Part shown: in pieces, positions 28,011 to 56,085 of the stretch
Numbering within the stretch: position 1 is the first letter of the stretch
Layout: the number at the start of each line of letters is the position of its first letter
Virus record (IMG/VR): IMGVR_UViG_3300042563_003224
Span: 41,164 to 105,163 of that record
Origin: a virus
Strand: one strand, 5' to 3'
DNA: 64,000 nucleotides
The notes under the pieces: model-generated
What the model was told of the DNA's origin: nothing
Databases searched by the model: none
Seen by the model: the letters and a program-made list of their open reading frames with translations, nothing else
Made by a program: the position numbers and the translations under genes

Positions 28011-28017
28011 CTAAATA
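28011..28017 (+). promoter_or_regulatory. T4-late-like promoter box of the CoA operon
   Basis: CTAAATA, 33 bases before the ATG at 28051. No strong ribosome-binding site is seen before the start. Confidence 0.45.
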
Positions 28018-28050: not shown

Positions 28051-29559
28051 ATGGCTATTTCAACTCGTTTCCTTATTGATTTTCCTCTCACACCAAATCT
28101 TAGTATTACAGATACAGGTCAGGAAGGCATGCCGACCTACAACCATGATACCATTGATCGACGAATCAACGCTGTTGCGTCGGGCTTAACCCGTTTAAAT
28201 TTTCCAGACAATAGTAGAATTACAATTATAGATTATCTATCATATAATTTTGTTACATTCAACGTCGGCGTATACCGAGCCAGGCATACCATAGCACCGA
28301 TTAATTTTAAACTTTCAGCCGAACAGGTTGAACATTGTATTAGAGATTCGGGTTCTGTAATAGTTTTTTGCAATCAACATTTTACACATCTTGTACCACC
28401 TGGTATGAAATTTATTGTGTTTGATTCAACAGAATTCAATGATTTTTTAGGAGACGAGAATTTTATTCCCGTTCCACCTTCTACTAATTATGAAGATTTT
28501 GAAAATAGAAATGTAACAATGATGTACACTTCGGGAACAACCGGTAATCCCAAAGGGGTAGTAAATAATTATAGAAATAGATTTTTTCAAATCAGCCGCG
28601 GAATTGACAATCCCATTGTCAAATATAAACGATTGGTTTCGTTGGCTCCATTACCAATATATCATTTAGCAGGACTTAACAATATCGAGCAAGATATGTT
28701 TTTTAGTTATTCTGAAGAAACACAGATTGTACTAATGCCACATTTTGATACTAAAAAATACATACAACACGTACAGGATTTTAAAATAACAAGATTGCGA
28801 CTAGTCTCACCAATGATGGCTATGGTTCTTCAAGAAACAGAATTACTAGAAAAAGCTGATTTTTCTCGCGTGGTAGGAATTGCATTAAACTCAAGTTTTG
28901 CTCCAAAGAAAATGCAAGATGACATAAGAAAATACTTTAAAGATTTAAAATGGTTAGACAATCCCTACGGTTTAACGGAAACAGGTCCACTGTTTGGAAA
29001 AGAAAACCCCAGGAACTTGCCTAAACCGATGATGAGTGTGGGATATCCGCTGCCGGAGGTTAGTTGTCGTATTAACAAAGATAATGTACTCGAAGTTAAA
29101 GCACCAGCGTGTTTGTCTCAATACCATAATAGACCCGAGTTACAGACTTCGTTTACCGACGATGGATATTTTATCACAGGTGATTTATTTAGAGTTAACT
29201 ATAATGGATTTTATTTTTACATGGGTCGTGCCGATGACATGTTTAAAAGTGGTGGTGAAAAAATCTATCCATCTGAAATTGAACCAGTTATTGAACGCCA
29301 CCCCGGTGTTGCGCTAAGTACGGTAGTGGGTGTAGAAGATGAAATCAAAGGGCATAAACCATATGCATTTGTAGAGCTCAAAATCGGAGCCAAAGCCACA
29401 GCCGAAGAAATTAAACAGTTTACCATTGAAAATGTTGCAACATATCAAATTCCTCGTCGAGTATGGATTTTAGATTCATTGCCGAGAACCAACATAGGCA
29501 AGATTGATCGCAAAACATTAAAAAATCTTGCCATTGATCTTTTAAAGGAAAATACATGA
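28051..29559 (+). CDS. acyl-CoA synthetase (AMP-forming, class I adenylate-forming enzyme)
   Basis: 502 residues, full length for the family. The ATP/AMP signature MMYTSGTTGNPKGV is at residues 157-170. Further motifs are YGLTETGP, YFITGDLF.....GFYFYMGRADDMFKSGGEKIYPSEIE, and the C-terminal NIGKIDRKTL with the catalytic lysine. It activates a carboxylic acid as acyl-AMP and then transfers it to CoA. No carrier-protein domain is fused, so a free acid is the likely substrate; its identity cannot be read. First gene of a three-gene plus-strand operon; its TGA overlaps the next ATG. Confidence 0.9.
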   Translation: MAISTRFLIDFPLTPNLSITDTGQEGMPTYNHDTIDRRINAVASGLTRLNFPDNSRITIIDYLSYNFVTFNVGVYRARHTIAPINFKLSAEQVEHCIRDSGSVIVFCNQHFTHLVPPGMKFIVFDSTEFNDFLGDENFIPVPPSTNYEDFENRNVTMMYTSGTTGNPKGVVNNYRNRFFQISRGIDNPIVKYKRLVSLAPLPIYHLAGLNNIEQDMFFSYSEETQIVLMPHFDTKKYIQHVQDFKITRLRLVSPMMAMVLQETELLEKADFSRVVGIALNSSFAPKKMQDDIRKYFKDLKWLDNPYGLTETGPLFGKENPRNLPKPMMSVGYPLPEVSCRINKDNVLEVKAPACLSQYHNRPELQTSFTDDGYFITGDLFRVNYNGFYFYMGRADDMFKSGGEKIYPSEIEPVIERHPGVALSTVVGVEDEIKGHKPYAFVELKIGAKATAEEIKQFTIENVATYQIPRRVWILDSLPRTNIGKIDRKTLKNLAIDLLKENT

Positions 29560-30326
29560 CATTTAACGCATGGGACACATTGGAAGGTAAAACTGCTGTG
29601 ATAACCGGTGTTACCGGAGGAATTGGGTTTGCTACCGCACAAAGACTTGCCAGACGCGGAGCCCGAATAATTGGTATAGTCAGAAGAAATTTAGAAGATG
29701 CACAGGCTAAATTAAACACATTACCATGTAGTAGTAAAGAACCTCATCTAGCATTACTAGCAGATGTATCCAACAAGGTTCAACTACAAGAAGCAATTCT
29801 ATCCATTGATCGTTGCGATATATTGGTACAAAGCACTGGCAATACCAAAAGAATTCCACACGAAAAAATTCAGTTAATGACTGATACCTACTTTGATGAG
29901 ATGACCAGAGATAACCTAAGAAGTTATTTTACTGTTATAAGGTCGTTTGAACCATTGCTGAGAAAAAGTCGAGAATCTGTCGTTGTCAATATTGGATCTG
30001 TTGCGGGCAATGCACACAGCGCCGGGGGCGGCAGCAATATTGCCTACTGTGCCGCCAAAGCCGGACTTGATGCATTGACTAGAAATTTATCCAAGGCATT
30101 AGCGCCAGACATTCGTGTGGTTGGTGTTAGTCCCGGTATAGTAGATACTACGTTTGTTACCAAGGCCATCGACAACTACCCTAATTTAGAGTCAATTGCC
30201 AATAGCACTCCACTTAAACGAATTGCCACAGTAGAAGATATAGCGGCAAATGTAGAAGCTTTAACTACCTTAATGAGATATTCCACAGGCATTGTAATCT
30301 GTGTAGACGGAGGAAGAACCCTATGA
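29556..30326 (+). CDS. short-chain dehydrogenase/reductase (FabG/hydroxyacid dehydrogenase type)
   Basis: 256 residues. Cofactor motif TGVTGGIGFA near residue 18, NIGSVAG with the catalytic serine region, Y-C-A-A-K with the catalytic Tyr and Lys, and a C-terminal GIVICVDGG, all typical of the SDR family. It interconverts a hydroxyl and a keto group using NAD(P)H. Coupled by ATGA to the acyl-CoA synthetase before it and the cleavage enzyme after it. In this company a beta-hydroxy-acid dehydrogenase or beta-ketoacyl reductase is likely; that is inference. Confidence 0.88.
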   Translation: MTFNAWDTLEGKTAVITGVTGGIGFATAQRLARRGARIIGIVRRNLEDAQAKLNTLPCSSKEPHLALLADVSNKVQLQEAILSIDRCDILVQSTGNTKRIPHEKIQLMTDTYFDEMTRDNLRSYFTVIRSFEPLLRKSRESVVVNIGSVAGNAHSAGGGSNIAYCAAKAGLDALTRNLSKALAPDIRVVGVSPGIVDTTFVTKAIDNYPNLESIANSTPLKRIATVEDIAANVEALTTLMRYSTGIVICVDGGRTL

Positions 30327-31216
30327 TCATCAGACCAGAAAAAACTATTATGACTTGCGCCATTACTGGCGCCATCACAGATCCCAATTCAACACCGTAT
30401 TTGCCAATCAGTCCAGAAGAGATAGCAGATAGTGCATTAGGTGCCGCAGAAGCAGGAGCCTCAATAGTGCATTTACATGTTAGAGATCCTGCAACTAAAA
30501 TGGCCAGCATGAGCACCGAACTGTATATAAAAGTAGTTGAGATGATCAAAAAAGACAATCCAGATCTTATTATCAATTTGACCACAGGTCCTGGAGCACT
30601 ATTTGTTCCCGGTGCTAGACTATTGCAAGTTGGTGAAAAAAGTAGTGTCATGAGAAGTGCTAGACAGAGAACCGAACATATAACTGAAATTAGACCAGAT
30701 ATCTGTAGTTTTGATTTCAATACCATGCATCATGGCGGACCAAGTATTCGTTTAAATTTTATGCCTGTGCTAAGAGAAATGGCAGTTATTATTAAAGAAG
30801 CAGGAACCAAACCTGAACTTGAATGCTTTGACTCCGGAGATGTTAGAATTGCCATGCAGTTGCAAAAAGAAGGTTTAATTGAAGAACACCCGCTGTGGCA
30901 GTTTGCAATGGGTGTCAAATATGGATGGGATAATACTCCCGAGGCATTAAACTATGCCCGATGTGCGATACCACACGGTTCGTTATGGTCGGCGTTTGGT
31001 ATCAGTCGGGAAGAAATGCCAATGGTGGCCAATACTTGGTTGTTAGGCGGGCATGTTAGGGTTGGTCTCGAAGACAACATTTACCTAAGTAAAAATGTGT
31101 TGGCAAAAACCAATGCTGAGTTAGTTACCAAAGGTCGTCGTGTTGTTGAGGATTTGGGTGGTCAGTTGGCCAACTATGCAGAAGCTAGGGCAATATTAAA
31201 TCTCCCTAGCAAGTAA
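30323..31216 (+). CDS. BKACE family beta-keto acid cleavage enzyme (DUF849)
   Basis: 297 residues. It has TCAITGAITDPN, the zinc-binding HLHVRDP (H-x-H), FNTMHHGG, and the late RVGLEDNIYL with the third zinc ligand Glu. These mark the Kce/BKACE family, which condenses a beta-keto acid with acetyl-CoA to give acetoacetate and a new CoA ester. The substrate varies between family members and is not readable. The length is typical. It ends the operon and converges on the gene at 31219. Confidence 0.9.
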   Translation: MIIRPEKTIMTCAITGAITDPNSTPYLPISPEEIADSALGAAEAGASIVHLHVRDPATKMASMSTELYIKVVEMIKKDNPDLIINLTTGPGALFVPGARLLQVGEKSSVMRSARQRTEHITEIRPDICSFDFNTMHHGGPSIRLNFMPVLREMAVIIKEAGTKPELECFDSGDVRIAMQLQKEGLIEEHPLWQFAMGVKYGWDNTPEALNYARCAIPHGSLWSAFGISREEMPMVANTWLLGGHVRVGLEDNIYLSKNVLAKTNAELVTKGRRVVEDLGGQLANYAEARAILNLPSK

Positions 31217-31218
31217 TA

Positions 31219-31761
31219 TTAGGGTTGAGTATAACCTTCTACATGTTGATCAATTACGCTGTCGTCTGGTAGTTCCATCCCGGGAGCAATGACCAATACT
31301 TCTTCTTCACTGAGAACACAGGCACGTTCTGCCCCAAATGCCAAGCACCAGTCGATCCATTCTTGTGCATGTTCTGCCTTGAGAACTCTCAAACTTTTCC
31401 ACGATTCGGGGACTGTTCGTAAATGCGGATAATCAGCTATAACTACATTTCTTACAGTATCGTGCGTATAATAGGTATTACAGGCCCAATGGCGGTATTT
31501 CACATTCCAATCGATTTTTCTGCCTGCATGTGGCGAAGGTATATCATAGGGTATGTAGGTGTCTCCACCGGGTGTGTCCGGCGAAGATCTAGTCCCTAAT
31601 GTTCCCTTGACCATTTTTCCGGCATCAACCAGTTCGGCAACTTTAGCAACCAGTGCATCATTGTTGGCTTTTGTGGGCGCTTCCAGGGTGCCAGGCAGGG
31701 GAATCGAAAAAGTTTCTGGCGGAAATGAGTTGGTAACGATAACATATTTTGCTGATGGCAT
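31219..31761 (-). CDS. hypothetical phage protein
   Basis: 180 residues, soluble, with an ordered N-terminus (KYVIVTNSFPPETFSIPLPGT) and a central YIPYDIPSPH. No family recognised. An AGGAG ribosome-binding site and a GTAAATA box (31784-31790) lie upstream. Confidence 0.5.
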   Translation of the reverse strand: MPSAKYVIVTNSFPPETFSIPLPGTLEAPTKANNDALVAKVAELVDAGKMVKGTLGTRSSPDTPGGDTYIPYDIPSPHAGRKIDWNVKYRHWACNTYYTHDTVRNVVIADYPHLRTVPESWKSLRVLKAEHAQEWIDWCLAFGAERACVLSEEEVLVIAPGMELPDDSVIDQHVEGYTQP

Positions 31762-32948: not shown

Positions 32949-32955
32949 TATTTAT
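32949..32955 (-). promoter_or_regulatory. T4-late-like promoter box
   Basis: ATAAATA, five bases before the ATG at 32943; it overlaps the stop of the gene at 32952. Confidence 0.5.
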
Positions 32956-34133
32956 AGGAATGTGTCTGCCAATTGCTGACACTTGTCCCTTATATCCTTG
33001 TTGTTGGTCACGGTGACTGAAAAGTCTTGCTCGCTGTGGTCATGTTGTGTGGGATCTGCATATCCAGCATACACTTTGTGTACATTGGTGTTGTTGATCA
33101 AATCGGTACAACTGCCGCCTGCTCGCTCATCGGCCATGTCAGTTTCATATTCGTTGCAAGGACTCAGGGTTGTAATGATAATCGAACCCTTGGGTATTTC
33201 ACCGTACTGCTTGTTATATTTGTTGATAGCAACTCGTTCAGCATGTATTCGTGTGTCACCGTCACCGGGTAAGTTTATACCTGTGACAATGTTATCATCT
33301 GGATCCACCACAGCGGCCGCAACCTTGCCATAACGGTCTGGGTCTTTGGCCTGGCCATCTACGATCATCTGTATCAACTGGGTCAGTATGCGATCCAATT
33401 TGGGGGTGTTGTGTACACGATAATCGTCAACGCTTTCCATGCTGAACTCGCGGTCTTGTGTGGTGTGGTATGCTTTACCAAGTCGATCTAAATAGCCCAA
33501 ATTGCGTACAACTTTAAATGCCAGGTTCTCTACACTGAACTCACCACCCGCATCCAGGCCTGCTCGGCGCATCTTACGCAGTTTATCTGTGATGCGCTTG
33601 ATGTCACGACTGTCATCTGCCGTTGCCAGGGCATGTCGTATTTGTACCAATAAGTCTTGTACCTTGTGATTTACAGCACCTGTGCTGATCTTGGGCTGTA
33701 GGTACTTGGGTGTGTGTACCCAACGATTGTTTGTGATGCTGTATACGCCTTGACTCACAGGTGGTTGTTTGACATCTTCTACATATAACTCTACATCATG
33801 TCCACGAATACGAATATTGTGTGCATCATTCCAAATCTTTTTCTTGGCTTGGTAAAGTGCTTCTGCCAAGTCATCACATTGCAAGTTGTTGTAGTCAGTG
33901 ACCACATGCAGATCAAAGTCACTAAACCGGGTCCAGTTGTAGTTGCTCATTGATCCAGTCAACACAATGTCTATGACTTCAAAGTCGGGTATTTCAAGAT
34001 AGTCAACAAAGGTGCCAACAATGGCCAGCAGTCGCTCTCTAACTTCGGGACGCATTTGATCGCCGGTCCAAGTGGCTGGATTCAGCCGGTTGTGATATGC
34101 AATATTGCCTGCGACGAAGTCTTGTGCTCTCAT
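32952..34133 (-). CDS. nucleotidyltransferase - cytidine-deaminase-like fusion protein
   Basis: 393 residues. Residues ~55-130 form a polymerase-beta-type nucleotidyltransferase: G60-S61...S-D72-x-D74-L-H (LTGSMSNYNWTRFSDFDLHVV). A helical region follows. The C-terminal ~120 residues hold a zinc deaminase: H-A-E at 297-299, then P-C at 325-326 and a further C at 342, wider spaced than the usual P-C-x-x-C. Such a pairing is unusual. One reading is a phage effector that modifies and deaminates nucleotides or RNA; the activity is unknown. Late-like box just upstream. Confidence 0.75.
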   Translation of the reverse strand: MRAQDFVAGNIAYHNRLNPATWTGDQMRPEVRERLLAIVGTFVDYLEIPDFEVIDIVLTGSMSNYNWTRFSDFDLHVVTDYNNLQCDDLAEALYQAKKKIWNDAHNIRIRGHDVELYVEDVKQPPVSQGVYSITNNRWVHTPKYLQPKISTGAVNHKVQDLLVQIRHALATADDSRDIKRITDKLRKMRRAGLDAGGEFSVENLAFKVVRNLGYLDRLGKAYHTTQDREFSMESVDDYRVHNTPKLDRILTQLIQMIVDGQAKDPDRYGKVAAAVVDPDDNIVTGINLPGDGDTRIHAERVAINKYNKQYGEIPKGSIIITTLSPCNEYETDMADERAGGSCTDLINNTNVHKVYAGYADPTQHDHSEQDFSVTVTNNKDIRDKCQQLADTFL

Positions 34134-42467: not shown

Positions 42468-43564
42468 TGTCAAGACTTGATTTTGGGGTGTTGGTAAACA
42501 GTCCAACCTGTAAATTCCATCTCGATCATTTTCAGAACAACAACATCCAAGAGTGGGCCATCTATCATGATTCGCCCACTTATTTTCTGCAATTTCAACA
42601 TCGTGCTCGTGCGGCATTATTGCATTGGCCATTTCCCGATAATCCCGAATTTGATACGCTAGTTGATCAGTTATACGATCATTGCGAAATTATTGTAATC
42701 ACAATAACTGAATTACATAATAGTAGTATCAATTTTATGCGTCGATTTGACCGACCTAAGATTGTGTTTTATATTGCTGGTTTTATACAAGAACCGTTAA
42801 AGTCAGCTCAAGTAAAAAACTACATGGATTGGTTCCACACCAGCAGGCATTTTTATCGAAACTACCTGCCTGAGATCCTACAGCGAATCAAACCTGGTGC
42901 TATTGAAAATTATTTTGACATACTGTTGGGTCGTAAAAAACCACACAGGGATTATATCAATCAATATGTTACTAAAAATCTTCGTACTGAACAATATTTC
43001 CTAACCTATTTCAACGAGCACGACATTGACTTTGCTGAAAATGAATTGCTATGGGCTTGGGAACAGCCCGGCCTTCGTTTCATTGATCGTCCAAAATGGA
43101 CAGTAGACATGGTTGAATACTTTGGTTTGAAGATGAGTATTAGCCAAGTAATTCCCATCGACATATACAATCGCACTGCTTATTCAGTTGTAGCAGAGAC
43201 TTGCTACTCAAACGAGTTTGTATTCTTTACTGAAAAAACTGCCAAGCCAATAATTGCCAGGCGTCTATTTGTTATGTTTGCCGGACAAGGGTATCTGGCA
43301 CGCCTACAACAACTAGGCTTTCGAACCTTTGACAGTATAATTGATGAAAGTTATGATCAAGAATCAGATCCTGTTCGTAGATGGGGCATGGCCTGTGATC
43401 AACTACTATTGTTAACACAAAAACCTCAGGACCAAGTATTAACACAGATAAAGCCCATTGTGGATCATAATTTTAAAATTATGATGAACAGCAATTGGTA
43501 TACTGATTTTAGTTCTGATTTAGAAAACCTGCTTGGTACACTTGCTGAGCAAACTCGGCGCTAG
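42467..43564 (+). CDS. putative glycosyltransferase (TEK..KPI family of T4-like phages)
   Basis: 365 residues. The C-terminal core FTEKTAKPIIARRLFVMFAGQGYLARLQQLGFRTFDSIIDESYD is shared with the gene at 50958-52094 and with phage proteins assigned to fucosyltransferase-like glycosyltransferases. The N-terminal ~200 residues differ. It probably transfers a sugar to a surface or virion glycan; donor and acceptor unknown. It overlaps the UvdE gene convergently by 56 bases. Confidence 0.6.
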   Translation: MSRLDFGVLVNSPTCKFHLDHFQNNNIQEWAIYHDSPTYFLQFQHRARAALLHWPFPDNPEFDTLVDQLYDHCEIIVITITELHNSSINFMRRFDRPKIVFYIAGFIQEPLKSAQVKNYMDWFHTSRHFYRNYLPEILQRIKPGAIENYFDILLGRKKPHRDYINQYVTKNLRTEQYFLTYFNEHDIDFAENELLWAWEQPGLRFIDRPKWTVDMVEYFGLKMSISQVIPIDIYNRTAYSVVAETCYSNEFVFFTEKTAKPIIARRLFVMFAGQGYLARLQQLGFRTFDSIIDESYDQESDPVRRWGMACDQLLLLTQKPQDQVLTQIKPIVDHNFKIMMNSNWYTDFSSDLENLLGTLAEQTRR

Positions 43565-44552
43565 CCAGGTTCTTGCCCTTGGCCTCGCACATGATATCAA
43601 ATTTCTGGCTAAATTGTGCGGCCCACTGATTGGTAGCTTGATTCCAAAAGAAATCACTGTGTGCCCGTAGTTTTTGTTTCTTGCGACCTTCTGCCAACAA
43701 GGCCTGATAGTCGGGACGCACAGTGGCATCATGTCCTACTAGGTAGTCTTCACGACTACAGGAATAATGCATAGTAGGACGTATGCCGCGCCAACTGTTA
43801 AGAATCCGTGAAATTCGGGCATCGCCGGGATCCAAGTAATCCCCTTCTCGTATCCAATAATGATGGATGTCAAGAACAGTAGGTATAATATCGCTAAGAC
43901 TGAGACAAGTATCAAGACCATGTGAATTCTCCTCGTTTTCTACGGTGATGCAGTTACGGGCCTCGGGACTGAGACGACCATGCACAGCTCGCATGCCTTC
44001 AGCACCGCGTTTGCCTGAAATATGTATGTTGATTTTAAAATCCTGAAAAGACTTACCAAATCCCATCCACCGTGCCAGGTCTGCATGGTATTCAAATTCC
44101 AGTATGCTACGCTCCACAATCGCATCCGATTCAGAAGCCAACACACAAAATTGTCCAGGATGGAAACTAAGGCGCACACCCAGGCGTCGTGCCGCTTCAC
44201 CCACAGGGGCAAATATCTTTGCACAATGGTCTTGGATTTCTGTTCGTTGCCACCAGTCAATCCAGTCTTTCTCAGTATAACCCTGTAACATTTCGCTACC
44301 TAGTCGAACCATGCGTAAATGTGGTGCAAGACTACCCACACGCTCAACCAGTCTGGTAGCGGCAGCCGCATTGTGGTTCATGATGTCCCACTGGCGTTGG
44401 TCAGCCTCGCCCTTGTGCTCTCTGAGCCAACGCATGGTAGTTGACCTACCGTTTAGGTCACGGTCCACAGCATTGACTTTCATGCCCCCACATTCACTGG
44501 GGTCATTGAGCCATTTGCAAGCAAAACCTATTCGGGGTGTAACTGTAGTCAT
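43509..44552 (-). CDS. uvsE: UV damage endonuclease UvdE
   Basis: 347 residues, a TIM-barrel UvdE. Markers: RIGFACKW at the start, LSFHPGQFCVL, INIHISGK, ENEE and LDIHHYW with metal ligands, and HYS. It nicks DNA 5' to UV photoproducts independently of nucleotide excision repair. It has a perfect promoter whose -10 box is six bases before the ATG. Confidence 0.92.
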   Translation of the reverse strand: MTTVTPRIGFACKWLNDPSECGGMKVNAVDRDLNGRSTTMRWLREHKGEADQRQWDIMNHNAAAATRLVERVGSLAPHLRMVRLGSEMLQGYTEKDWIDWWQRTEIQDHCAKIFAPVGEAARRLGVRLSFHPGQFCVLASESDAIVERSILEFEYHADLARWMGFGKSFQDFKINIHISGKRGAEGMRAVHGRLSPEARNCITVENEENSHGLDTCLSLSDIIPTVLDIHHYWIREGDYLDPGDARISRILNSWRGIRPTMHYSCSREDYLVGHDATVRPDYQALLAEGRKKQKLRAHSDFFWNQATNQWAAQFSQKFDIMCEAKGKNLASAEFAQQVYQAGFLNQN

Positions 44553-44558
44553 ACTTGT

Positions 44559-44587
44559 ATTATATACATACTTTATTTTATTGTCAA
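44559..44587 (-). promoter_or_regulatory. consensus sigma70-type promoter, leaderless geometry
   Basis: TTGACA, 17 bases, TATAAT, ACAAGT, ATG on the minus strand. Identical in layout to 60912-60940. Confidence 0.8.
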
Positions 44588-45021
44588 CTGTAGATCCACC
44601 CTAAATGTTCCTTTTGGTGTAACCAAGTAAAAATAGGTACCGTAAATGCCAATTCCCATCTGCCATTCCATCCCAAATGGGTCGCACCCCGAAGTATTTG
44701 ATCCAGACTACTTTGTGAGTCTGCCCAAGGTTGTGGATAGTTGGGTGTATATGTTCCAGACCATTTTAGCCTGTCAGTTGTGATTCCTTCTACCGAGACC
44801 GAATCTACAACAACCATCATGTCTGGGGTGTCGTTGGTTTTGTTGGCAAACTCAAAGAAGAACCTGTGTGCTGTTGTAGATAAGTCTAGACTAAAGTGTA
44901 GCGTTACCTCATTGTCGATGAAAATTTTATTACATACTTCATTGTCTATGCCATAGGTAATCTCGGGACGACCCACACCCCGTAATGTAACAGCAAAGCT
45001 AGTATTATACTTGGTATCCAT
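44584..45021 (-). CDS. hypothetical beta-sandwich-like protein
   Basis: 145 residues, strand-rich, with LRGVGRPEITYGIDNEV and LHFSLDLS. HLGWNGRWELAFTVPIFTWLHQKEHLGWIYS ends it. It is coupled to the radical-SAM gene upstream. It may be a carbohydrate-binding-type fold; no family name can be given. Confidence 0.45.
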   Translation of the reverse strand: MDTKYNTSFAVTLRGVGRPEITYGIDNEVCNKIFIDNEVTLHFSLDLSTTAHRFFFEFANKTNDTPDMMVVVDSVSVEGITTDRLKWSGTYTPNYPQPWADSQSSLDQILRGATHLGWNGRWELAFTVPIFTWLHQKEHLGWIYS

Positions 45022-46297
45022 GCTCTAATAAAAATTCTCGGTACTCGGGATAAATCTCTCGAGCATCCAATTTGAACTCGTTGTCCCATCTGGCCAACCA
45101 ATGTATCAACTGCTCTCGTAATTCTACAACATTGTCAGGTTCAGGTGCAGACAACATATTGATAACGGTTTCTGTGTGTCTGGCCAACATTTGTTCTATG
45201 TTGGCTACATTTCTTCCTGTGGTAAGTCCAACACGATCCGGAACCAGTTCAGTTAACTGTGCAAGTAGTTCTGTATATTTGGGAATCAAACCAGTTCTAA
45301 TTTCCAAAGGCAATACACAGATTTGTAAATATTCTGGTTCAGTCAACGGAATGCTTTGAATTGCCAACTTGTTTTGTAACGCCCATCTAATCAATTCATC
45401 ATAGTTGTTCACGCTCAACAATTGTGGCACTGTACGCAATACAATATTAAAAGTGTCGCTTTGATGTTGAGTCAATTCTAAAATAGTTTGCTTTACATCC
45501 GCGGTAACAGATCCTTGCCTAATGTAATGGTTGTTGTCTTTGACACTTTCTATGCTGATTTCAATATCGCATGATCTAAATTGTTTTAGTCTAGCGACTG
45601 CTTGATCGTACAACATTGTGCCATTGCTTACAAAACTAATGCTGATATCTGTGCGCCCCTGTGCTATTAGAAAATCCAGTAGTTCAATGAATCGTTTACT
45701 GAGCATGGGTTCGCCACCCATGAAATGTAGTCTATTTAAATGCTTGGTTTCTAGTATGCTGGTCTTAAAAGATTCCCAGGCTTGATCGTCCGCAGTCCAA
45801 TTACGATTGGCAGTCGCATCTATTAGTTTCCATTTTTGATAAATGCTACTAATCTTACTGCTGGCTCTAGGATAGCACATCTTACAGGCCAGGTTACACT
45901 CATTGCCCAAGTCTATGTGCCAATCAACAGGCTGTCGATCTGTTACAGTAGCAAATGCATCACGCATGGGACTTTGAATATAACTGCGTTCGAATGCCCG
46001 CTCTGTAAAGATTACAGTTTTAAAGTTTTCACGGATGCGTCGACTTTCGTGCCCGTGTGCTTCTTCTTTGTAACAGTCCCTACAACCATTGATGGGTTCT
46101 GCTCCTTGGATAGCCCGACGCTTGGCCTGCATGGGCACAGAGTTGTACCACTGACCCACTGTCATGTTTTTAATATTGTATTGTGCAGGATCTGTGTGTG
46201 GCTGTTCTCGTTCACTGCAACACAGGCCAAAACTGCCGTCCCAATAGATATGTGTATTCGTCCAAGGAACGCTACAAAATATTCGCTGATCAGGCAT
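45005..46297 (-). CDS. radical SAM protein (twitch/SPASM-like)
   Basis: 430 residues. The cluster motif is C134-x3-C138-x2-C141 (ECNLACKMC). Upstream are two cysteine sites (CC at 26-27, GCRDC at 72-75) that resemble an auxiliary Fe-S region at the N-terminus. LHFMGGEPML and ISFVSNGTML are the typical SAM-binding blocks. Enzymes of this type occur in T4-like phages and modify peptides or other substrates; the target is unknown. The IscA-like carrier may supply clusters. Confidence 0.85.
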   Translation of the reverse strand: MPDQRIFCSVPWTNTHIYWDGSFGLCCSEREQPHTDPAQYNIKNMTVGQWYNSVPMQAKRRAIQGAEPINGCRDCYKEEAHGHESRRIRENFKTVIFTERAFERSYIQSPMRDAFATVTDRQPVDWHIDLGNECNLACKMCYPRASSKISSIYQKWKLIDATANRNWTADDQAWESFKTSILETKHLNRLHFMGGEPMLSKRFIELLDFLIAQGRTDISISFVSNGTMLYDQAVARLKQFRSCDIEISIESVKDNNHYIRQGSVTADVKQTILELTQHQSDTFNIVLRTVPQLLSVNNYDELIRWALQNKLAIQSIPLTEPEYLQICVLPLEIRTGLIPKYTELLAQLTELVPDRVGLTTGRNVANIEQMLARHTETVINMLSAPEPDNVVELREQLIHWLARWDNEFKLDAREIYPEYREFLLEHGYQV

Positions 46298-46298
46298 G

Positions 46299-47555
46299 TT
46301 ACTCTATTATGCCAAAGTTAGCCCAGCGAGCTTGCCCTAAACTAACCCACCCAAGCGGGCCACCAATGCTGGGATTACTGTTGAACACAATTGATCCTTT
46401 TTCGGTATCGTTATTGGGTGGAGTAGGCGATGTGCTAATACTAGTTGTTCCTAGTTGTAGTCGTGGAATAGTCACAGATCCATCGGTGTTCAACAACAAG
46501 TTAGATTTACCATTGGTCCCGATGACCAATAACTGGTCTCTATTAGACCATATCTGTGCTACCCCTTGTTGTCGTTTGCCAATGTTAATATCAATTTCTT
46601 CTTCCCATATAGTCAGAGCACTACTTGGTTCCATTGTATTAACACCCACTCGTTTACTTCCAGTATACAAAGTATTATATATTAAGGTTTCACCACGAAC
46701 CATAAGTTCATGTAACACGCCAACTTTTTGTAAATTACTTTCTATTATAGCATTGTCTAGTCTGTTACCAACTACTAGATCAACACCGTTTAATTTTATT
46801 TGATTAAGATCAAGTCCGTTGGCATCTATTTCGTTATATAAATGCTTACTAAATTTTGTAAACAGTTCGTCGTTTAATTCTTCTTGTACTTGCTTTTTAG
46901 CGGCACTAACCACAGTGACAAAACCCGGACTGGTTTCTACTATAGTTCCGTTTAAAGATAAATTACCTTCAAATATGGTATTACCTTTAACAATTAGATC
47001 TTTAGTTAATAAATTATTTTCAATTACTGTGACATCATCCATGATGGTAACACGACAACCGGTTGCTTTGTCATCTATGCCTGTGCTACCAAACTCTGTA
47101 ATGATGCCGCCTTTGACTGTATCTCCGCTGATTGTACCTACTTGTTTAATTGCGGTACTGTTGATACTTTCGTTGGGGAATGTAAAATCTTTTAATTTAC
47201 TGTCGATAATGGATGTTAATGCAGAAGCAATAGCTCCATTAAAATCTATACTGCTGATTCTAGCTGTTATTGCTTCATTAACCAATCTCGACGCGGTATT
47301 GGAGATATTATCTACAATGGCCTTTGTTGATGCGGCAAGTTGTTTATCAATTTCACCCAACTTTGGTTTATATTGTACCGCGGCAACTCGGGCCTCAGCC
47401 TTTGCGGCTTCATCCACCCGTGCGGCAACATTTATTGCATCAAGTTGTCTATTGATTGTATCTTGTAGACTGTTATTGACTTTAGCTGATACTTCTTTAA
47501 GTATCTGTTGCGAAAGATTGTCAACTAAGCCAGATAGTATATTGTTAGATTCCAT
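46299..47555 (-). CDS. structural protein with beta-solenoid repeats
   Basis: 418 residues. N-terminal coiled coil (about residues 1-110), then a strand-rich region with LIVKGNTIFEGNLSLNGTIVETSPG and LMVRGETLIYNTLYTG. It ends SLGQARWANFGIIE. It resembles appendage or baseplate-associated proteins of T4-like phages. Separate from the fibres at the start of the window. Confidence 0.6.
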   Translation of the reverse strand: MESNNILSGLVDNLSQQILKEVSAKVNNSLQDTINRQLDAINVAARVDEAAKAEARVAAVQYKPKLGEIDKQLAASTKAIVDNISNTASRLVNEAITARISSIDFNGAIASALTSIIDSKLKDFTFPNESINSTAIKQVGTISGDTVKGGIITEFGSTGIDDKATGCRVTIMDDVTVIENNLLTKDLIVKGNTIFEGNLSLNGTIVETSPGFVTVVSAAKKQVQEELNDELFTKFSKHLYNEIDANGLDLNQIKLNGVDLVVGNRLDNAIIESNLQKVGVLHELMVRGETLIYNTLYTGSKRVGVNTMEPSSALTIWEEEIDINIGKRQQGVAQIWSNRDQLLVIGTNGKSNLLLNTDGSVTIPRLQLGTTSISTSPTPPNNDTEKGSIVFNSNPSIGGPLGWVSLGQARWANFGIIE

Positions 47556-48288
47556 CGAATGTTATTGAAATTACATGCTCATAATTTCGCTTGACCAAGC
47601 TCTTGTACATAAGATTTTTATGAACTAAAAAGTTACTTGCTCCTGAGTCTAAGCTGAATTTGGCTAATTGTTTGAAATACATAGTTCTGCGACTAAAAGG
47701 TCCGTGTGTTGTTAACTCATTTATAGATTGATCAATTTCGTATACTGCTGTTTTCCATGACGCACGATCTTTAAGGTCCCAATCGTGACTTTCTATGTAG
47801 GTAGTTTTAGACAGCCCCGATCTTACCAAAACTGGTTGACTGTATTCACGGTCTTTGTAGTCTTGATTTTTATAATCCTTTAAAGTACTTATTAAAAATT
47901 CTCGGGCCAGGCTACAAAATAATTTAATTTGGTGTTGCTGTTCTGCATCCGATTGAGCAAATGTAAAATACTCATCTAGTGCCACCACAACATCAAATCC
48001 TTTTTGATATTTGTGTAGATCTACATAATCTATGTATCTAAATTTAACTCCGCGGTCTGTCAATGATTTTTGCGCCTCGGAACTAATTTCAGTGACTGCA
48101 ATATCGCCAACAGTGGATGCAATAATAGCTGGATTGTATCCAACAAACAAAATTGAATCAGGTGCCAGATTGTAAAAATCGTACACTCCGATTATAATTT
48201 CGTTTTTCTTGTTTATAACATCTTGTGCATGAGAGTTGCGATTAAATGCAGATAAGATACTGTCTGTATAGCTGTCAAATTCGGTCAT
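47545..48288 (-). CDS. possible methyltransferase-fold protein
   Basis: 247 residues. IIGVYDFYNLAPDSILFVGYNPAI and FDVVVALDEYFTFAQS resemble the first strand and the post-IV region of Rossmann-type methyltransferases, but the SAM-binding glycine motif is weak. Overlaps the structural gene by 11 bases. Low confidence. Confidence 0.4.
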   Translation of the reverse strand: MTEFDSYTDSILSAFNRNSHAQDVINKKNEIIIGVYDFYNLAPDSILFVGYNPAIIASTVGDIAVTEISSEAQKSLTDRGVKFRYIDYVDLHKYQKGFDVVVALDEYFTFAQSDAEQQHQIKLFCSLAREFLISTLKDYKNQDYKDREYSQPVLVRSGLSKTTYIESHDWDLKDRASWKTAVYEIDQSINELTTHGPFSRRTMYFKQLAKFSLDSGASNFLVHKNLMYKSLVKRNYEHVISITFDGI

Positions 48289-48309
48289 AGTTTTATTCTA
48301 ATAATGCTA

Positions 48310-49230
48310 TTATTTAGCGACCCGAACCAAATCCAATGTAACACAATGAAACCCACCTCCCAGTGTACGACTGTGGCGTAGCTCCAAGGGAATGACTGTA
48401 AATTTATAACTCTCAAGAGACTTGATCAATTCTGTTTGATGTCGATCTACAATAACTGTATGTTGATCTACCACCAGCATGTTCATGGCAATCCACTTGC
48501 TGGCATAGGGATATTGATAGAAGTCTTGTGTCACCACATCATTGATCCATATCTTGTGCCATCCATCAAATGCACGGGGTACGGTGTCTGCGGTGACACG
48601 ACTTCCGTTCAGCATTACCAGACCTGGTCTCAAGGGAACTATGGTGCTGTCAATGTGTACTCCACTGTAGAAGTTACATAATTCGATGCTGGTGGTTGGG
48701 GGCAAGTTGGCCAATAGCCAATAGTATGCCAGCCGATTGCCACTGGCACTTTCTAAGTACAGTAATTTATTCTCACCCAGTCGTAATATATTGGCCGCAT
48801 CCAACACAAGTCCTTGATCTCTAGGCATGTGTAAGACCCGAGCATCTCGAAGTATGTCGTGATAACATTGTAGTTCCATATCCCTGCAGGGATACATCAT
48901 TGGTGTGTCCACTACTGTATCACCTAGCACTAATAATCTATCTCGGGGGCAGTAGTTATACATGCCATCGTGAGTTTGAAAGTTTAACGGGTCAGGTCGT
49001 ACGACTTCAACACCCAGACTTGTCAATGTCGTGGCCAGTGTATCTAAGTCTTCGTTAGTTTCTTCTATTATGCGTTGTGGGACAGGGCCTCGTGGCACCG
49101 GAGTTTCTTTCCAAGTGGTCTTTTCGCTCTCTTTGTTAAAAACAGGATCGTTAACTGGCCAATTGGCATCGGTAGCATCACCAACTACAACTCTTTTTAA
49201 ACTATCCCATTCATTCCATGTTGATATCAT
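48310..49230 (-). CDS. amidinotransferase (AGAT/StrB-like)
   Basis: 306 residues. Catalytic set of the guanidino-group-modifying family: D in LDAANIL, H in GVHIDST, and the nucleophile C296 in GGGFHCVT. It moves an amidino group from arginine to an amine (glycine, inosamine or other). Next to sugar-nucleotide and glycosyltransferase genes, an amidino-decorated sugar is a plausible product; inference. It overlaps the 2OG-like gene upstream by ATGA. Confidence 0.8.
   Translation of the reverse strand: MISTWNEWDSLKRVVVGDATDANWPVNDPVFNKESEKTTWKETPVPRGPVPQRIIEETNEDLDTLATTLTSLGVEVVRPDPLNFQTHDGMYNYCPRDRLLVLGDTVVDTPMMYPCRDMELQCYHDILRDARVLHMPRDQGLVLDAANILRLGENKLLYLESASGNRLAYYWLLANLPPTTSIELCNFYSGVHIDSTIVPLRPGLVMLNGSRVTADTVPRAFDGWHKIWINDVVTQDFYQYPYASKWIAMNMLVVDQHTVIVDRHQTELIKSLESYKFTVIPLELRHSRTLGGGFHCVTLDLVRVAK
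48311..48317 (-). promoter_or_regulatory. T4-late-like promoter box
   Basis: CTAAATA at the end of the amidinotransferase gene, upstream of the gene at 47545-48288. Confidence 0.4.
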
Positions 49231-49745
49231 ACATGCCCTGTAATTTGTAATGTGTAGCGCGGTTCCAATCCCATGTTGGCTGCCATATGTGGCGCATCAT
49301 AACTCCACTCATTGGCCCAGCCTGCTGTCCAACCGACAAAAGGTTGATCATTATACTCAGCATAATGCCCAGGCTTCCAATCTTCTAAGAACACAACGGT
49401 ACGCCGTATGGTCTGCTCTTGCCCTCGAAGTTTAAAAATATCAATATACCTCGTATACAAGTCACTGTGTGTGGGCAATATGGTTCCAGGCATCATTCTG
49501 TAGTAACTGGTGCCAACATCTTGCCAACCCAATTGTTCAAATATATTGACGAATTGTCGATTCCAGGTGGGCTGTACACTACGCATGTCACACATATCAC
49601 CAGTGAACTTGTTTGCAAAACCTGATTCCGTCCAACGCTTCAAATTTTCATCGTCATTGAATGATTCATTGACATATGGTAACGACTTAAACTCGTCGTC
49701 CCAAAATTTGGGAATCTTATACTTGGTTATTGCGTGTGTTACCAT
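49227..49745 (-). CDS. 2OG-Fe(II) oxygenase-like protein (group E)
   Basis: 172 residues. H93-x-D95 (PTHSDLY), H153 (APHMAAN) and R163 (EPRYTLQI). The layout recalls aspartyl/asparaginyl-beta-hydroxylase-type folds. Coupled to the amidinotransferase and overlapping the dehydrogenase gene, so probably part of the same pathway. Confidence 0.65.
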   Translation of the reverse strand: MVTHAITKYKIPKFWDDEFKSLPYVNESFNDDENLKRWTESGFANKFTGDMCDMRSVQPTWNRQFVNIFEQLGWQDVGTSYYRMMPGTILPTHSDLYTRYIDIFKLRGQEQTIRRTVVFLEDWKPGHYAEYNDQPFVGWTAGWANEWSYDAPHMAANMGLEPRYTLQITGHV

Positions 49746-50955
49746 AATGTATTACCTTAATATCGGGGTTAGTCGTCTTGTATGTTCGCCACGGATCAAT
49801 GATTGTGCTACCTGATCCTATTTCACAGTACAGCGGTTGTTCAACAATATTGCCACTATAGCCATAAGTGATCTGCTGATTATGTGCCAACAAGAATACA
49901 CCAATTGCAAATTGTAATTGTGTATCTTCGGCCAACGGATCAATGTAGTAAGGTTTGATACCCATTTCTTCTAGATAGTATCCCACTAGCAAACTGTAAC
50001 TTCCTTCAGTATAGGCCACATTAGGTTTATATGCTTTGCCGTGAATGTAAACCGATTTATCAAGTCCCTGCTCAACAGCAACATCACGAATAAACCTTGC
50101 CATATTTTTGGCCTGTTGTTCTCTTGCTTTCATTATAGCATCAAATAAGTCATAACCCAAATCTAATTCTTCCGCAAGATAGCGCAAGGCAATATTATCC
50201 CTGGGATGACAAGGACCTGCATCGCCCAAACCTGCAGTCATGTATTTTGGTCCCATAATACGCATTTTGCTATTGGCCAGGGCATTGGTAACTACATCTA
50301 CATCGATGTTGCCTTGCTTCATTGCTACATCTTGTATCATGTTGGCTAGTCCAAGTTTGGCACTGATAAATGTATTATAAAATACCTTGATACACTCAGC
50401 CTCATCCCAGGTGCCAACTTCGTATCGTGGATCATTTTGCATTATGGTTTTGTAAAATGTAATTAATTCTCGAGCATCGCCTGTTTCACTGCCGTCTTCT
50501 GTGCCAATAATAACCATTTCTGGATTGACCATATCCCACTCCACTGAGCCCATGGCAATTAAGTACGGATTGTAAATGAAACGAGCATTGGTAATGTTGG
50601 GTCTTAGTAGTCTACGGGTAGTACCGGGCAGTACTGTACTAATTAACACAACCAATTGATCGGGTTGTGCCCAAGCATCAACATCTTTTAACACCTGTGT
50701 GACTTTTGTGTAGTCAAAATCTTTGTTCTTCAAGTGTGTGATAGGTTGTTCGCCTCCGTAAACAGGATCGTGCGGAGTTTGTACAGCAATAAAGATTATG
50801 TCTTGATTGACCACTGCACCACGCAGGCTATCGGATATTCTAATCTTGTCACTTTTTCGTGGATAAATATCATACCCAGTAACTTCATGCTGAGTAGCCA
50901 TTACTTCGGCGCACGACATTCCCAATTTGCCTATTCCAATAAATCCTATTTTCAT
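49717..50955 (-). CDS. UDP-glucose/GDP-mannose dehydrogenase family protein
   Basis: 412 residues from the ATG at 50955. N-terminal Rossmann motif GFIGIGKLGMSCA, middle domain with N-P-Y-L-I-A-M-G and a catalytic cysteine in AGPCHPRDNIAL, and a C-terminal domain with GKAYKPN. It oxidises a nucleotide sugar at C6 to a uronic acid in two NAD-linked steps. The exact sugar is unknown. It starts two bases from the divergent glycosyltransferase gene. Confidence 0.82.
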   Translation of the reverse strand: MKIGFIGIGKLGMSCAEVMATQHEVTGYDIYPRKSDKIRISDSLRGAVVNQDIIFIAVQTPHDPVYGGEQPITHLKNKDFDYTKVTQVLKDVDAWAQPDQLVVLISTVLPGTTRRLLRPNITNARFIYNPYLIAMGSVEWDMVNPEMVIIGTEDGSETGDARELITFYKTIMQNDPRYEVGTWDEAECIKVFYNTFISAKLGLANMIQDVAMKQGNIDVDVVTNALANSKMRIMGPKYMTAGLGDAGPCHPRDNIALRYLAEELDLGYDLFDAIMKAREQQAKNMARFIRDVAVEQGLDKSVYIHGKAYKPNVAYTEGSYSLLVGYYLEEMGIKPYYIDPLAEDTQLQFAIGVFLLAHNQQITYGYSGNIVEQPLYCEIGSGSTIIDPWRTYKTTNPDIKVIHYGNTRNNQV

Positions 50956-50957
50956 CA

Positions 50958-52094
50958 ATGAGTTCCTTTAATTTCGTTAGTTTTACCAATTGGTATCGAA
51001 TTTTACATAGATACTTTTTTTCTAATTTAGATTTTGATCTGCACTATGTATCATCAATGCTGGATGAATCACCTTATTATCATATTTCATCCGATGGTAC
51101 TAAAATAGATAACAGCAAACATAGTATCTTGTTTTTTGACCAAGAACCTATTCACCCAGAGTTAATTCATTATGTCAGATCTGCGGCCGATTGGTATTTT
51201 ACCCCAGGACGGCGTTTTTTTGTAACCAGTGAAAAGTCTAACACAGTTGATCGATATACACATGGCATGAATGCCCAAAGTATTTATTATTTCTTTCATG
51301 CCATTGCGGCAAATGAGTGGTATCACCAATACAGATGGCGCAAACCTGTTTATAAAGATCATCAGCACCTGTATATAAGCTACAATAATCTAGTTAATCC
51401 TTACAGAGCGCATCGCATTGATTTGCTGTGTAGATTATACAGCAAAAATCTAATAGATCAAGGGCTTGTTAGTTTTAATTCGCCCGGACAGAAATACCTG
51501 GCAAAGATAGTGGACGAATGCACTTGGTATAGCACAAAGTCTCGAGACCTATTTCAACAACACACACATCAATTAACTAATAGAACTATCGACACAGACT
51601 CAATCGATGGCTTTCTAAGTGCCACCATTGATGTAGATCATTCAACTCAGTGCTTGCTTCAGATTGTAACCGAAACAGATTTTTACAAAGATAAATTGCA
51701 TTTAACTGAAAAAGTATTTAAACCTATAGTGAGCGGACAACCGTTTATGTTATTGGCAGGTCGAGGAAATTTAGCATACTTGCGTGAATATGGTTTTAAA
51801 ACATTTGATGATTACTGGGATGAATCATATGATGACATATCTGATCCTGGTGACAGAGTGGGTGCTGTGGTAAATCAGCTAGAGCGACTTGCCAATTTGA
51901 GTCACACCCAACAACAATCAATGCGACAAGATATGCAACATATCGTAGAACATAATTTTAATCACTTGTTCTTTGATCTAAGACTGTGCGTAGTAGCAGA
52001 ACTTACAAACAACATAGCACAGGCATTGAAATTGCAAGATATTGCCTACAATCCTGCAGATTTACGCGAGCTTTACCGCCAGCTGGTCAATTAG
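50958..52094 (+). CDS. putative glycosyltransferase (TEK..KPI family)
   Basis: 378 residues. LTEKVFKPIVSGQPFMLLAGRGNLAYLREYGFKTFDDYWDESYD matches the gene at 42467-43564. The N-terminal half has FFDQEPIHPEL. Same family, different acceptor part. Converges on the D,D-peptidase gene with an 8-base overlap. Confidence 0.6.
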   Translation: MSSFNFVSFTNWYRILHRYFFSNLDFDLHYVSSMLDESPYYHISSDGTKIDNSKHSILFFDQEPIHPELIHYVRSAADWYFTPGRRFFVTSEKSNTVDRYTHGMNAQSIYYFFHAIAANEWYHQYRWRKPVYKDHQHLYISYNNLVNPYRAHRIDLLCRLYSKNLIDQGLVSFNSPGQKYLAKIVDECTWYSTKSRDLFQQHTHQLTNRTIDTDSIDGFLSATIDVDHSTQCLLQIVTETDFYKDKLHLTEKVFKPIVSGQPFMLLAGRGNLAYLREYGFKTFDDYWDESYDDISDPGDRVGAVVNQLERLANLSHTQQQSMRQDMQHIVEHNFNHLFFDLRLCVVAELTNNIAQALKLQDIAYNPADLRELYRQLVN

Positions 52095-54994: not shown

Positions 54995-55951
54995 TTAGGC
55001 TTGCTTACGGATAGCATCAACCAATCCTGGTGTGAACATGTCACGGAACTGATCATAAACTACAGCAGTTTGTGCTTTGGCCCAAGCCAATTCTTCTGTG
55101 CTCAAAGGTTGAATCTTTGCACCTTCGGCAGTTAGCTTTTGCTTGGCAATTTCGCCATCACGGATTGTTTCTAAACGCTCTTCACGCCCGGCTTCAATTG
55201 CGGCCTGCTTGATAACAGCCTTGACCGCAGGGCTCAGACTTTCCCAGAAACGGTCACCAATGATCATAGTGGTCAAGAACAAACTGTGTTCTGTGTCTAA
55301 CACAGTCTTGGTAACAGCATTTTGACCCAATGGGTAAATACGTGGATAATTAGTTTCTGCACCTTCACAGTTACCAGCTGTCATGTTGTCTACGATTTCT
55401 TCTAGTTCGCAAACAAATGGGTTCAATCCCAATGCACGGTAAGTTGCTTGTGCGACTGGGTTACGGTTGCTACGCTGTGTAGTTCCAGCCAACTCTGCCA
55501 GTGTACTGACTTCTTTGTTGGAAATCATTTGACGGAAACCACCCGAGTATGTGTAGCTCAAGCCACGAACATTGCTCTTTTCTTTCAATTTGGCCAACAA
55601 GCCTTCGCCAACTTCGCCTTCTAACACGCGAGTTGCGTGGTCATGACCTGCAAAGATGTATGGCAAATCAAATGCCAACATGTCTTGCTCATAGTGTTCA
55701 GCCAACCATGTGGTGTACATTTGGCTCATTTCAATCTTGCCTTGATCCATTAGATCTAACAAGTCGTGTTTTGTAACCAAGACGCCATCGTTATACTTGT
55801 GACTGTATTCAGTCAAAGTCATGATTTCAACTTGAACTTTTTCGCTGTCATTGCTGATAGCGGCATTCAAGTGGTCTTGGAAGTCTTTGGCGGCACGAAC
55901 AAATAGATTTAGTGGCTCGTGTGCGATTACCCAGCGGATTTTTGTAGTCAT
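54995..55951 (-). CDS. TRAP-type (DctP-like) solute-binding protein without signal peptide
   Basis: 318 residues from the ATG at 55951 with a GGAGA ribosome-binding site. The fold markers of DctP proteins are present: MSQMYTTWLAEHYEQDMLAFDLPYIF, the RSNRNPVAQATYRALG block around the binding arginine, NYPRIYPLGQNAVTKTV and a C-terminal helix. The N-terminus (MTTKIRWVIAHEP) has no signal peptide, and no DctQ/DctM membrane genes are near. It is either a cytosolic ligand binder or exported by other means. Confidence 0.75.
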   Translation of the reverse strand: MTTKIRWVIAHEPLNLFVRAAKDFQDHLNAAISNDSEKVQVEIMTLTEYSHKYNDGVLVTKHDLLDLMDQGKIEMSQMYTTWLAEHYEQDMLAFDLPYIFAGHDHATRVLEGEVGEGLLAKLKEKSNVRGLSYTYSGGFRQMISNKEVSTLAELAGTTQRSNRNPVAQATYRALGLNPFVCELEEIVDNMTAGNCEGAETNYPRIYPLGQNAVTKTVLDTEHSLFLTTMIIGDRFWESLSPAVKAVIKQAAIEAGREERLETIRDGEIAKQKLTAEGAKIQPLSTEELAWAKAQTAVVYDQFRDMFTPGLVDAIRKQA

Positions 55952-56085
55952 ATATGGTTTCTCCATTTAAAATTTAGTAAGGGTTTGCAAGCGTTCTAGG
56001 CATTGTATGCTAGTAAAAGGGTCTCTACCCTAAGCGTTTCGACAGCGTCGTCGTCGTCAACATTGCGTTGGCGTTTGCATAATAA

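Follow-up and report, generated by a model that had tools for sequence, protein, structure and literature searches.

Breakdown of deoxyribonate in Pseudomonas simiae relies on an SDR and a BKACE (beta-keto acid cleavage enzyme), an established oxidise-then-cleave pair (Price 2019, PMC6365646). A dehydrogenase and a BKACE, TfD and TAL, likewise form a pair in the phloroglucinol breakdown of Clostridium scatologenes, and in Kce, the BKACE of lysine fermentation, Glu14 binds the 5-amino group of the substrate (PMC10470551).

The viral operon described here encodes an acyl-CoA synthetase (ACS), an SDR and a BKACE. It resembles the deoxyribonate system of P. simiae and Burkholderiales (PMC6365646) in that a beta-keto acid made by the SDR would be cleaved by the BKACE with acetyl-CoA, giving acetoacetate that then needs activation. 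The deoxyribonate genes differ in lying on a bacterial chromosome, with MFS transporters and without a dedicated ACS in the operon, and the likeness is one of enzyme classes that does not imply the same substrate. TfD and TAL also combine a dehydrogenase with BKACE-family cleavage, and the residue equivalent to Kce Glu14 is replaced both there and in the phage; however, TfD is annotated as a 3-hydroxyacyl-CoA dehydrogenase, the replacing residue is Trp rather than Ile or Val, and C. scatologenes is an anaerobic bacterium. Kce shares with the phage BKACE its fold, its predicted Zn ligands and the equivalents of Arg226, Asp231 and Glu143, whereas the phage copy falls under the NCBIfam equivalog cut-off and has the amine-binding Glu14 replaced. 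Closest among the bacterial matches listed are SDR-BKACE pairs from aromatic-degradation loci of Burkholderiales (L045 and similar), at about 54% for BKACE and 46% for SDR and with TctC nearby, but these have no ACS and adjoin an intradiol dioxygenase and a FAD monooxygenase. On the viral side, the operon is comparable to the auxiliary metabolic genes of T4-like aquatic phages, where a phage genome likewise holds enzymes of host type preceded by a phage-type promoter motif. It differs in that we found no report of a BKACE among such genes; the one related transporter case found was a tctA domain match in a SUP05 virus (PMC4164917).

Layout, promoter motif and active sites of the operon

The window (the whole stretch of 64,000 nucleotides that was analysed) spans positions 41164-105163 of a linear IMG/VR record of 105,163 bases. 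The same record codes for a T4-type DNA polymerase (phrog_262, 8e-190), a clamp loader, an ATP-dependent protease and a DNA ligase. Because relatives found through GP88 reach 345-353 kb, the record probably represents part of the genome of a jumbo T4-like phage.

The operon lies on the plus strand and consists of an AMP-forming acyl-CoA synthetase of the ANL superfamily (28051-29559, 502 aa; Pfam AMP-binding 4.7e-39 and AMP-binding_C 1.9e-16), a classical, FabG-like SDR (29556-30326, 256 aa; adh_short and adh_short_C2, the latter at 5.9e-37) and a BKACE (30323-31216, 297 aa; full-length PF05853, 5.6e-88). An earlier sequence-only reading of this DNA had named these three enzyme classes and described full-length genes coupled by overlaps. 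The Pfam matches bear out the classes, the domains are complete, and the ORFs, all full-length, are joined by 4-nt overlaps. That reading had also placed the operon against most of the phage genes, and among selected window ORFs of 150 aa or more only five are indeed on the plus strand, three of them being the operon, with the rest on the minus strand; the orientation opposes almost all other genes of the 105-kb fragment. At its 3' end the operon converges with the next gene (31219-31761), whose stop is 2 bases away from that of the BKACE and which had no relatives in an IMG/VR scan. The scan with this downstream neighbour found no second contig of the same strain spanning the cassette. For window positions 40001-64000, no near-identical DNA was found in GenBank phages. 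An empty-site search (blastn, window 20000-42000) showed that the GP88 relatives have only the GP88 gene in common with this stretch and therefore do not reveal an empty site.

Several other genes of the window were recorded. The ORF at 32952-34133 (-) combines a C-terminal dCMP/cytidine deaminase zinc domain with an N-terminal region matching phrog_36119; a UvdE endonuclease, a radical SAM/SPASM protein and a UDP-glucose dehydrogenase-like protein cluster at 43509-50958; and a 698-aa phage protein at 56433-58529 (-) carries an autotransporter beta-domain (PF03797, 2e-15), which is unusual for a phage.

A CTAAATA sequence at 28011-28017 (+), containing the late-promoter-like TAAATA at 28012-28017, is located 33 nt before the ACS start. 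TAAATA occurs at most 60 nt upstream of 23 window genes, compared with 3.2 expected, and 0 of 300 rotations reached 23. It was also present upstream of the ACS in 9 of 13 cassettes examined (this one and 8 of the 12 others). The T4 late promoter core is TATAAATA; since the TAAATA motif of the window resembles this core, the operon may be expressed late in infection.

The active sites on which the proposal of a working operon depends (ANL motifs, SDR Ser-Tyr-Lys, BKACE Zn and catalytic residues) are all kept. The ACS motifs YTSGTTGNPKG, YGLTETG, GRADDMFKSGGEKIYPSEIE and GKIDRK are intact and the C-terminal Lys is present; these core motifs and that Lys, together with the AMP-binding and AMP-binding_C domains, identify an ANL acyl-CoA synthetase, which had no match above cut-off to a curated subfamily. 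The SDR shows the classical features, with TGxxGxG in the form TGVTGGIG and with Ser148, Tyr164 and Lys168, which are invariant in the SDR alignment. An Arg, and no Asp, follows beta2, which predicts the use of NADP(H).

The BKACE scores 295 bits against PF05853 (curated cut-off 24.8) over positions 1-274 of 274. Its AlphaFold model (pLDDT 83.7) has as its best 21 PDB matches only BKACE/DUF849 structures (query TM 0.80-0.89), and the predicted structure is a TIM-barrel BKACE fold. By mapping to a Kce sequence whose sole check is its agreement with the published Glu14, we take His50, His52 and Glu250 to be the predicted Zn ligands, and Arg246, Asp251 and Glu167 to be the equivalents of Kce Arg226, Asp231 and Glu143. 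All six residues are invariant across 8 phage sequences. The sequence-only reading had offered 3-keto-5-aminohexanoate as an example substrate, which finds no support here: the BKACE reaches 235 bits against the Kce equivalog NF052387, below the cut-off of 382, and by the same Kce mapping the Glu14 position is Ile18 in the window BKACE and Ile, Val, Gly or Asp in phage copies, being non-acidic in all but one. Lysine-type specificity is therefore unlikely.

Recurrence and descent of the viral BKACE

This BKACE is carried by 35 further IMG/VR contigs (a protein scan gave 12 and a profile scan 35). A search of viral databases for a BKACE with adjacent SDR and ligase, as the earlier reading had advised, recovered the order ACS-SDR-BKACE in 18 of the 36 records, this one included. 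One of the 18 (L013) has a broken BKACE, split over two ORFs at L013:7927-8623 through a sequencing error or as a decaying copy, and in three of them ACS and SDR are fused into a single 721-codon ORF. The other records have SDR-BKACE (L097, L111, L119), ACS-BKACE without SDR (L010, L101) or BKACE alone, with neither SDR nor ACS in L105-L110. In many records the cassette is antiparallel to its neighbours, and these vary by lineage. This opposed orientation with lineage-specific neighbours suggests that the cassette was placed several times.

Chance or misassembly is an unlikely source of the operon, because 17 further IMG/VR contigs, whose neighbouring genes differ, have the three genes in the same order. 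Contamination, misassembly or decaying host genes would fit the single metagenome contig seen here and the split BKACE of L013, but we consider this very improbable. The gene is found in 36 viral records, several of which carry gp23, terminase or T4-type polymerase, and in one (L010) the cassette has a terminase gene immediately upstream; a viral-only clade, purifying selection and the phage promoter motif also speak against it. Pairwise dN/dS was 0.02-0.14 for BKACE where measurable, and 0.07-0.08 for ACS and SDR in the one measurable close pair, showing that the operon genes are under purifying selection.

A tree of 76 sequences placed 30 viral BKACEs in a single clade (SH-aLRT 100), with 43 bacterial homologues outside it; these homologues are among the matches listed, and closer bacterial relatives may exist. 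Distances of ACS and BKACE were correlated (Mantel r 0.69), and the correlation between SDR and BKACE was weak (r 0.25), so exchanges of the SDR may have occurred. Among the matches listed, the nearest bacterial relatives of the BKACE belong to Burkholderiales and mostly form SDR-BKACE pairs. The nearest bacterial operon examined, L045, contains a dioxygenase and a FAD monooxygenase and is of the aromatic-degradation type, so kinship does not reveal the substrate.

The sequence-only reading knew of no described phage with this gene set, and our searches agree: BKACE had 0 matches in 50,697 GenBank phage records and none in PHROGs, and in the literature searched we found no earlier report of BKACE together with phage, nor of the whole operon. 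Matches to ACS and SDR in GenBank phage records were distant (<60% identity), many of them in unannotated records. The same reading had regarded the operon as phage cargo. Its location in a phage is upheld, and on its position in a phage genome among phage genes the operon appears to belong to the phage auxiliary metabolic genes; a single odd event is too narrow a description for a module that recurs, whose BKACE forms a clade of its own in viruses, and which has a phage-type promoter motif and a linked carboxylate-binding protein. This recurrent phage metabolic module appears to be undescribed so far.

A DctP-type protein and the wider module

The window also encodes a DctP-type TRAP solute-binding protein of 323 aa at 54995-55966 (-) (Pfam PF03480, 2.6e-43). 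The best PDB matches of its model (pLDDT 93.7) are TRAP binding proteins, at a query TM of about 0.8-0.86, and the protein is accordingly modelled with a TRAP binding-protein fold. The carboxylate-binding Arg is kept in phage DctP, in a KVRTSRSPVA stretch aligned with PDB DctP chains. No signal peptide was detected in this protein or in the other phage DctP copies listed, and neither a DctM nor a TctA permease was found in 19 records, some of them fragments. Without an export signal, DctP cannot serve normal TRAP uptake.

Of the 17 BKACE records that reach 40 kb, 15 have DctP. It is absent from all of 13 backbone relatives, which were also at least 40 kb, were picked by polymerase or GP88 homology and all lack BKACE (Fisher p about 2e-6, a guide only, since the relatives compared are mainly kin of this phage and fragments are frequent among the records). 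The two genes are at most 7 kb apart in 14 of 19 records, and about 100 bp apart in four lineages (L009, L097, L119 and the L106-L110 group). That DctP is a mere lineage marker is opposed by the closest backbone relatives, which are without it. DctP is often present where BKACE is missing, which suggests that BKACE was added to a more general DctP module of phages. The signal-less DctP-like family is widespread, with 436 viral stretches matched; in GenBank phage records its matches were few, partial, <60% identical and mostly in unannotated records. Literature matches for 'dctp' that we read referred to the nucleotide dCTP and not to the DctP protein. In L106-L110, L163, L168 and L172, two ORFs of about 156 and 162 aa take the place of a single DctP gene and may encode a two-chain binding protein.

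Among DctP loci (L155-L234), a PP-loop gene adjoins in 34 of 80 and TctC in 27 of 80. Phage TctC proteins carry signal peptides, and the record studied here encodes a TctC-type periplasmic binding protein with a signal peptide outside the window (L015:3281-4249, -). TctC was rejected as a BKACE-specific partner, being found in 5 of the 13 backbone relatives too. The PP-loop family (about 420 aa, SGGIDST motif, weak Asn-synthase match) recurs near BKACE or DctP, at L014:3567-4748 (-) and in L009, L097, L100, L104, L106 and L112, and often lies beside a gene for F254, an unknown family of about 254 aa. In L100, all of these module genes fall within one same-strand run. Fatty acid desaturase-like proteins were seen in module phages as well (L014:5419-6066 (-), L097, L104, L112, L119).

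Direction, substrate and meaning of the proposed route

We give a probability of about 0.5 to the explanation that this is a phage-borne, catabolic carboxylate metabolism operon read as one late transcript. A single late mRNA would start at the TAAATA-type phage promoter; the SDR would oxidise a beta-hydroxy acid to a beta-keto acid, and the BKACE would convert this with acetyl-CoA into acetoacetate and a new acyl-CoA. The ACS could then use ATP to turn acetoacetate into acetoacetyl-CoA, from which host thiolase would restore acetyl-CoA, or could instead load the starting acid. A carboxylate of the route may be kept in the cytosol by the DctP-like protein, which lacks a signal peptide; periplasmic TctC, whose gene lies elsewhere in the genome, may aid import via host permeases. 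For the phage, the net gain late in infection would be acyl-CoA/acetyl-CoA carbon and reducing power. The intact genes with their catalytic residues and fold, the conserved gene order, the ACS-SDR fusions, the virus-only clade, the low dN/dS, the promoter motif, the DctP linkage and the comparable enzyme pairs of bacteria support this explanation. Against the full route stand the phages with BKACE but no SDR or ACS and those with ACS-BKACE but no SDR, which suggest that some phages can dispense with one or two of these reactions. The release of acetoacetate and acyl-CoA, as proposed from the sequence alone, is a plausible direction for which bacteria offer precedents (PMC6365646; PMC10470551); both it and the substrate are inferred.

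A point against oxidation is the apparent NADP(H) preference of the SDR, which is often the sign of a reductase. BKACE chemistry is reversible, and the C. scatologenes enzyme (CsTAL) has been shown to run both ways (PMC10470551). The NADP-type SDR motif and this reversibility leave room for a biosynthetic direction, in which the ACS would activate an acid, the BKACE would run in reverse from acyl-CoA and acetoacetate to a beta-keto acid and acetyl-CoA, and the SDR would reduce the product to a beta-hydroxy acid, perhaps conjugated with the help of PP-loop and F254. The ACS-SDR fusion and the linked PP-loop (weakly Asn-synthase-like) and F254 genes fit such a route; bacterial SDR-BKACE pairs studied so far act in breakdown, SDR-BKACE without ACS is common, and no acceptor molecule is known, so we hold it to be unlikely, though worth weighing.

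Two narrower substrates were considered. All three enzyme classes can meet at acetoacetate, which, once made by the BKACE, could be activated by the ACS and reduced by the SDR to 3-hydroxybutyryl-CoA as storage carbon, or the reverse could mobilise polyhydroxybutyrate (PHB). Many Burkholderiales store PHB, and the nearest bacterial BKACE relatives among the matches listed are from this order. We nevertheless doubt this reading, given that the SDR has a score of 99 for acetoacetyl-CoA reductase, where the cut-off is 302, and that no PHB genes were seen. Deoxyribonate oxidation, a special case of the catabolic explanation, is slightly less probable still. The SDR would yield ketodeoxyribonate and the BKACE glyceryl-CoA and acetoacetate, by the same enzyme pair as in P. 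simiae (PMC6365646). As deoxyribonate comes from DNA turnover, this route would be attractive for a phage degrading host DNA, and the mostly non-acidic Glu14 position is compatible with it, whereas the aromatic-degradation type of L045 points elsewhere.

Beyond the catabolic explanation, we tentatively consider a dedicated carboxylate-handling system of T4-like/jumbo phages. It would join the virus-only BKACE, cytosolic DctP, the PP-loop ligase-like protein, F254 and periplasmic TctC acting via host permeases, as a phage-evolved set without a cellular counterpart that perhaps makes a small molecule and does not only burn carbon. We count the operon among a known kind, the phage auxiliary metabolic genes, and see a real possibility that it is a phage-specific carboxylate system. 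Known phage metabolic genes mostly concern photosynthesis, nucleotides, and phosphate or carbon shunts. If the proposal is true, a CoA pathway of several enzymes, one of them forming a separate viral clade, that is coupled to carboxylate-binding proteins would mean that large aquatic phages handle specific organic acids during infection.
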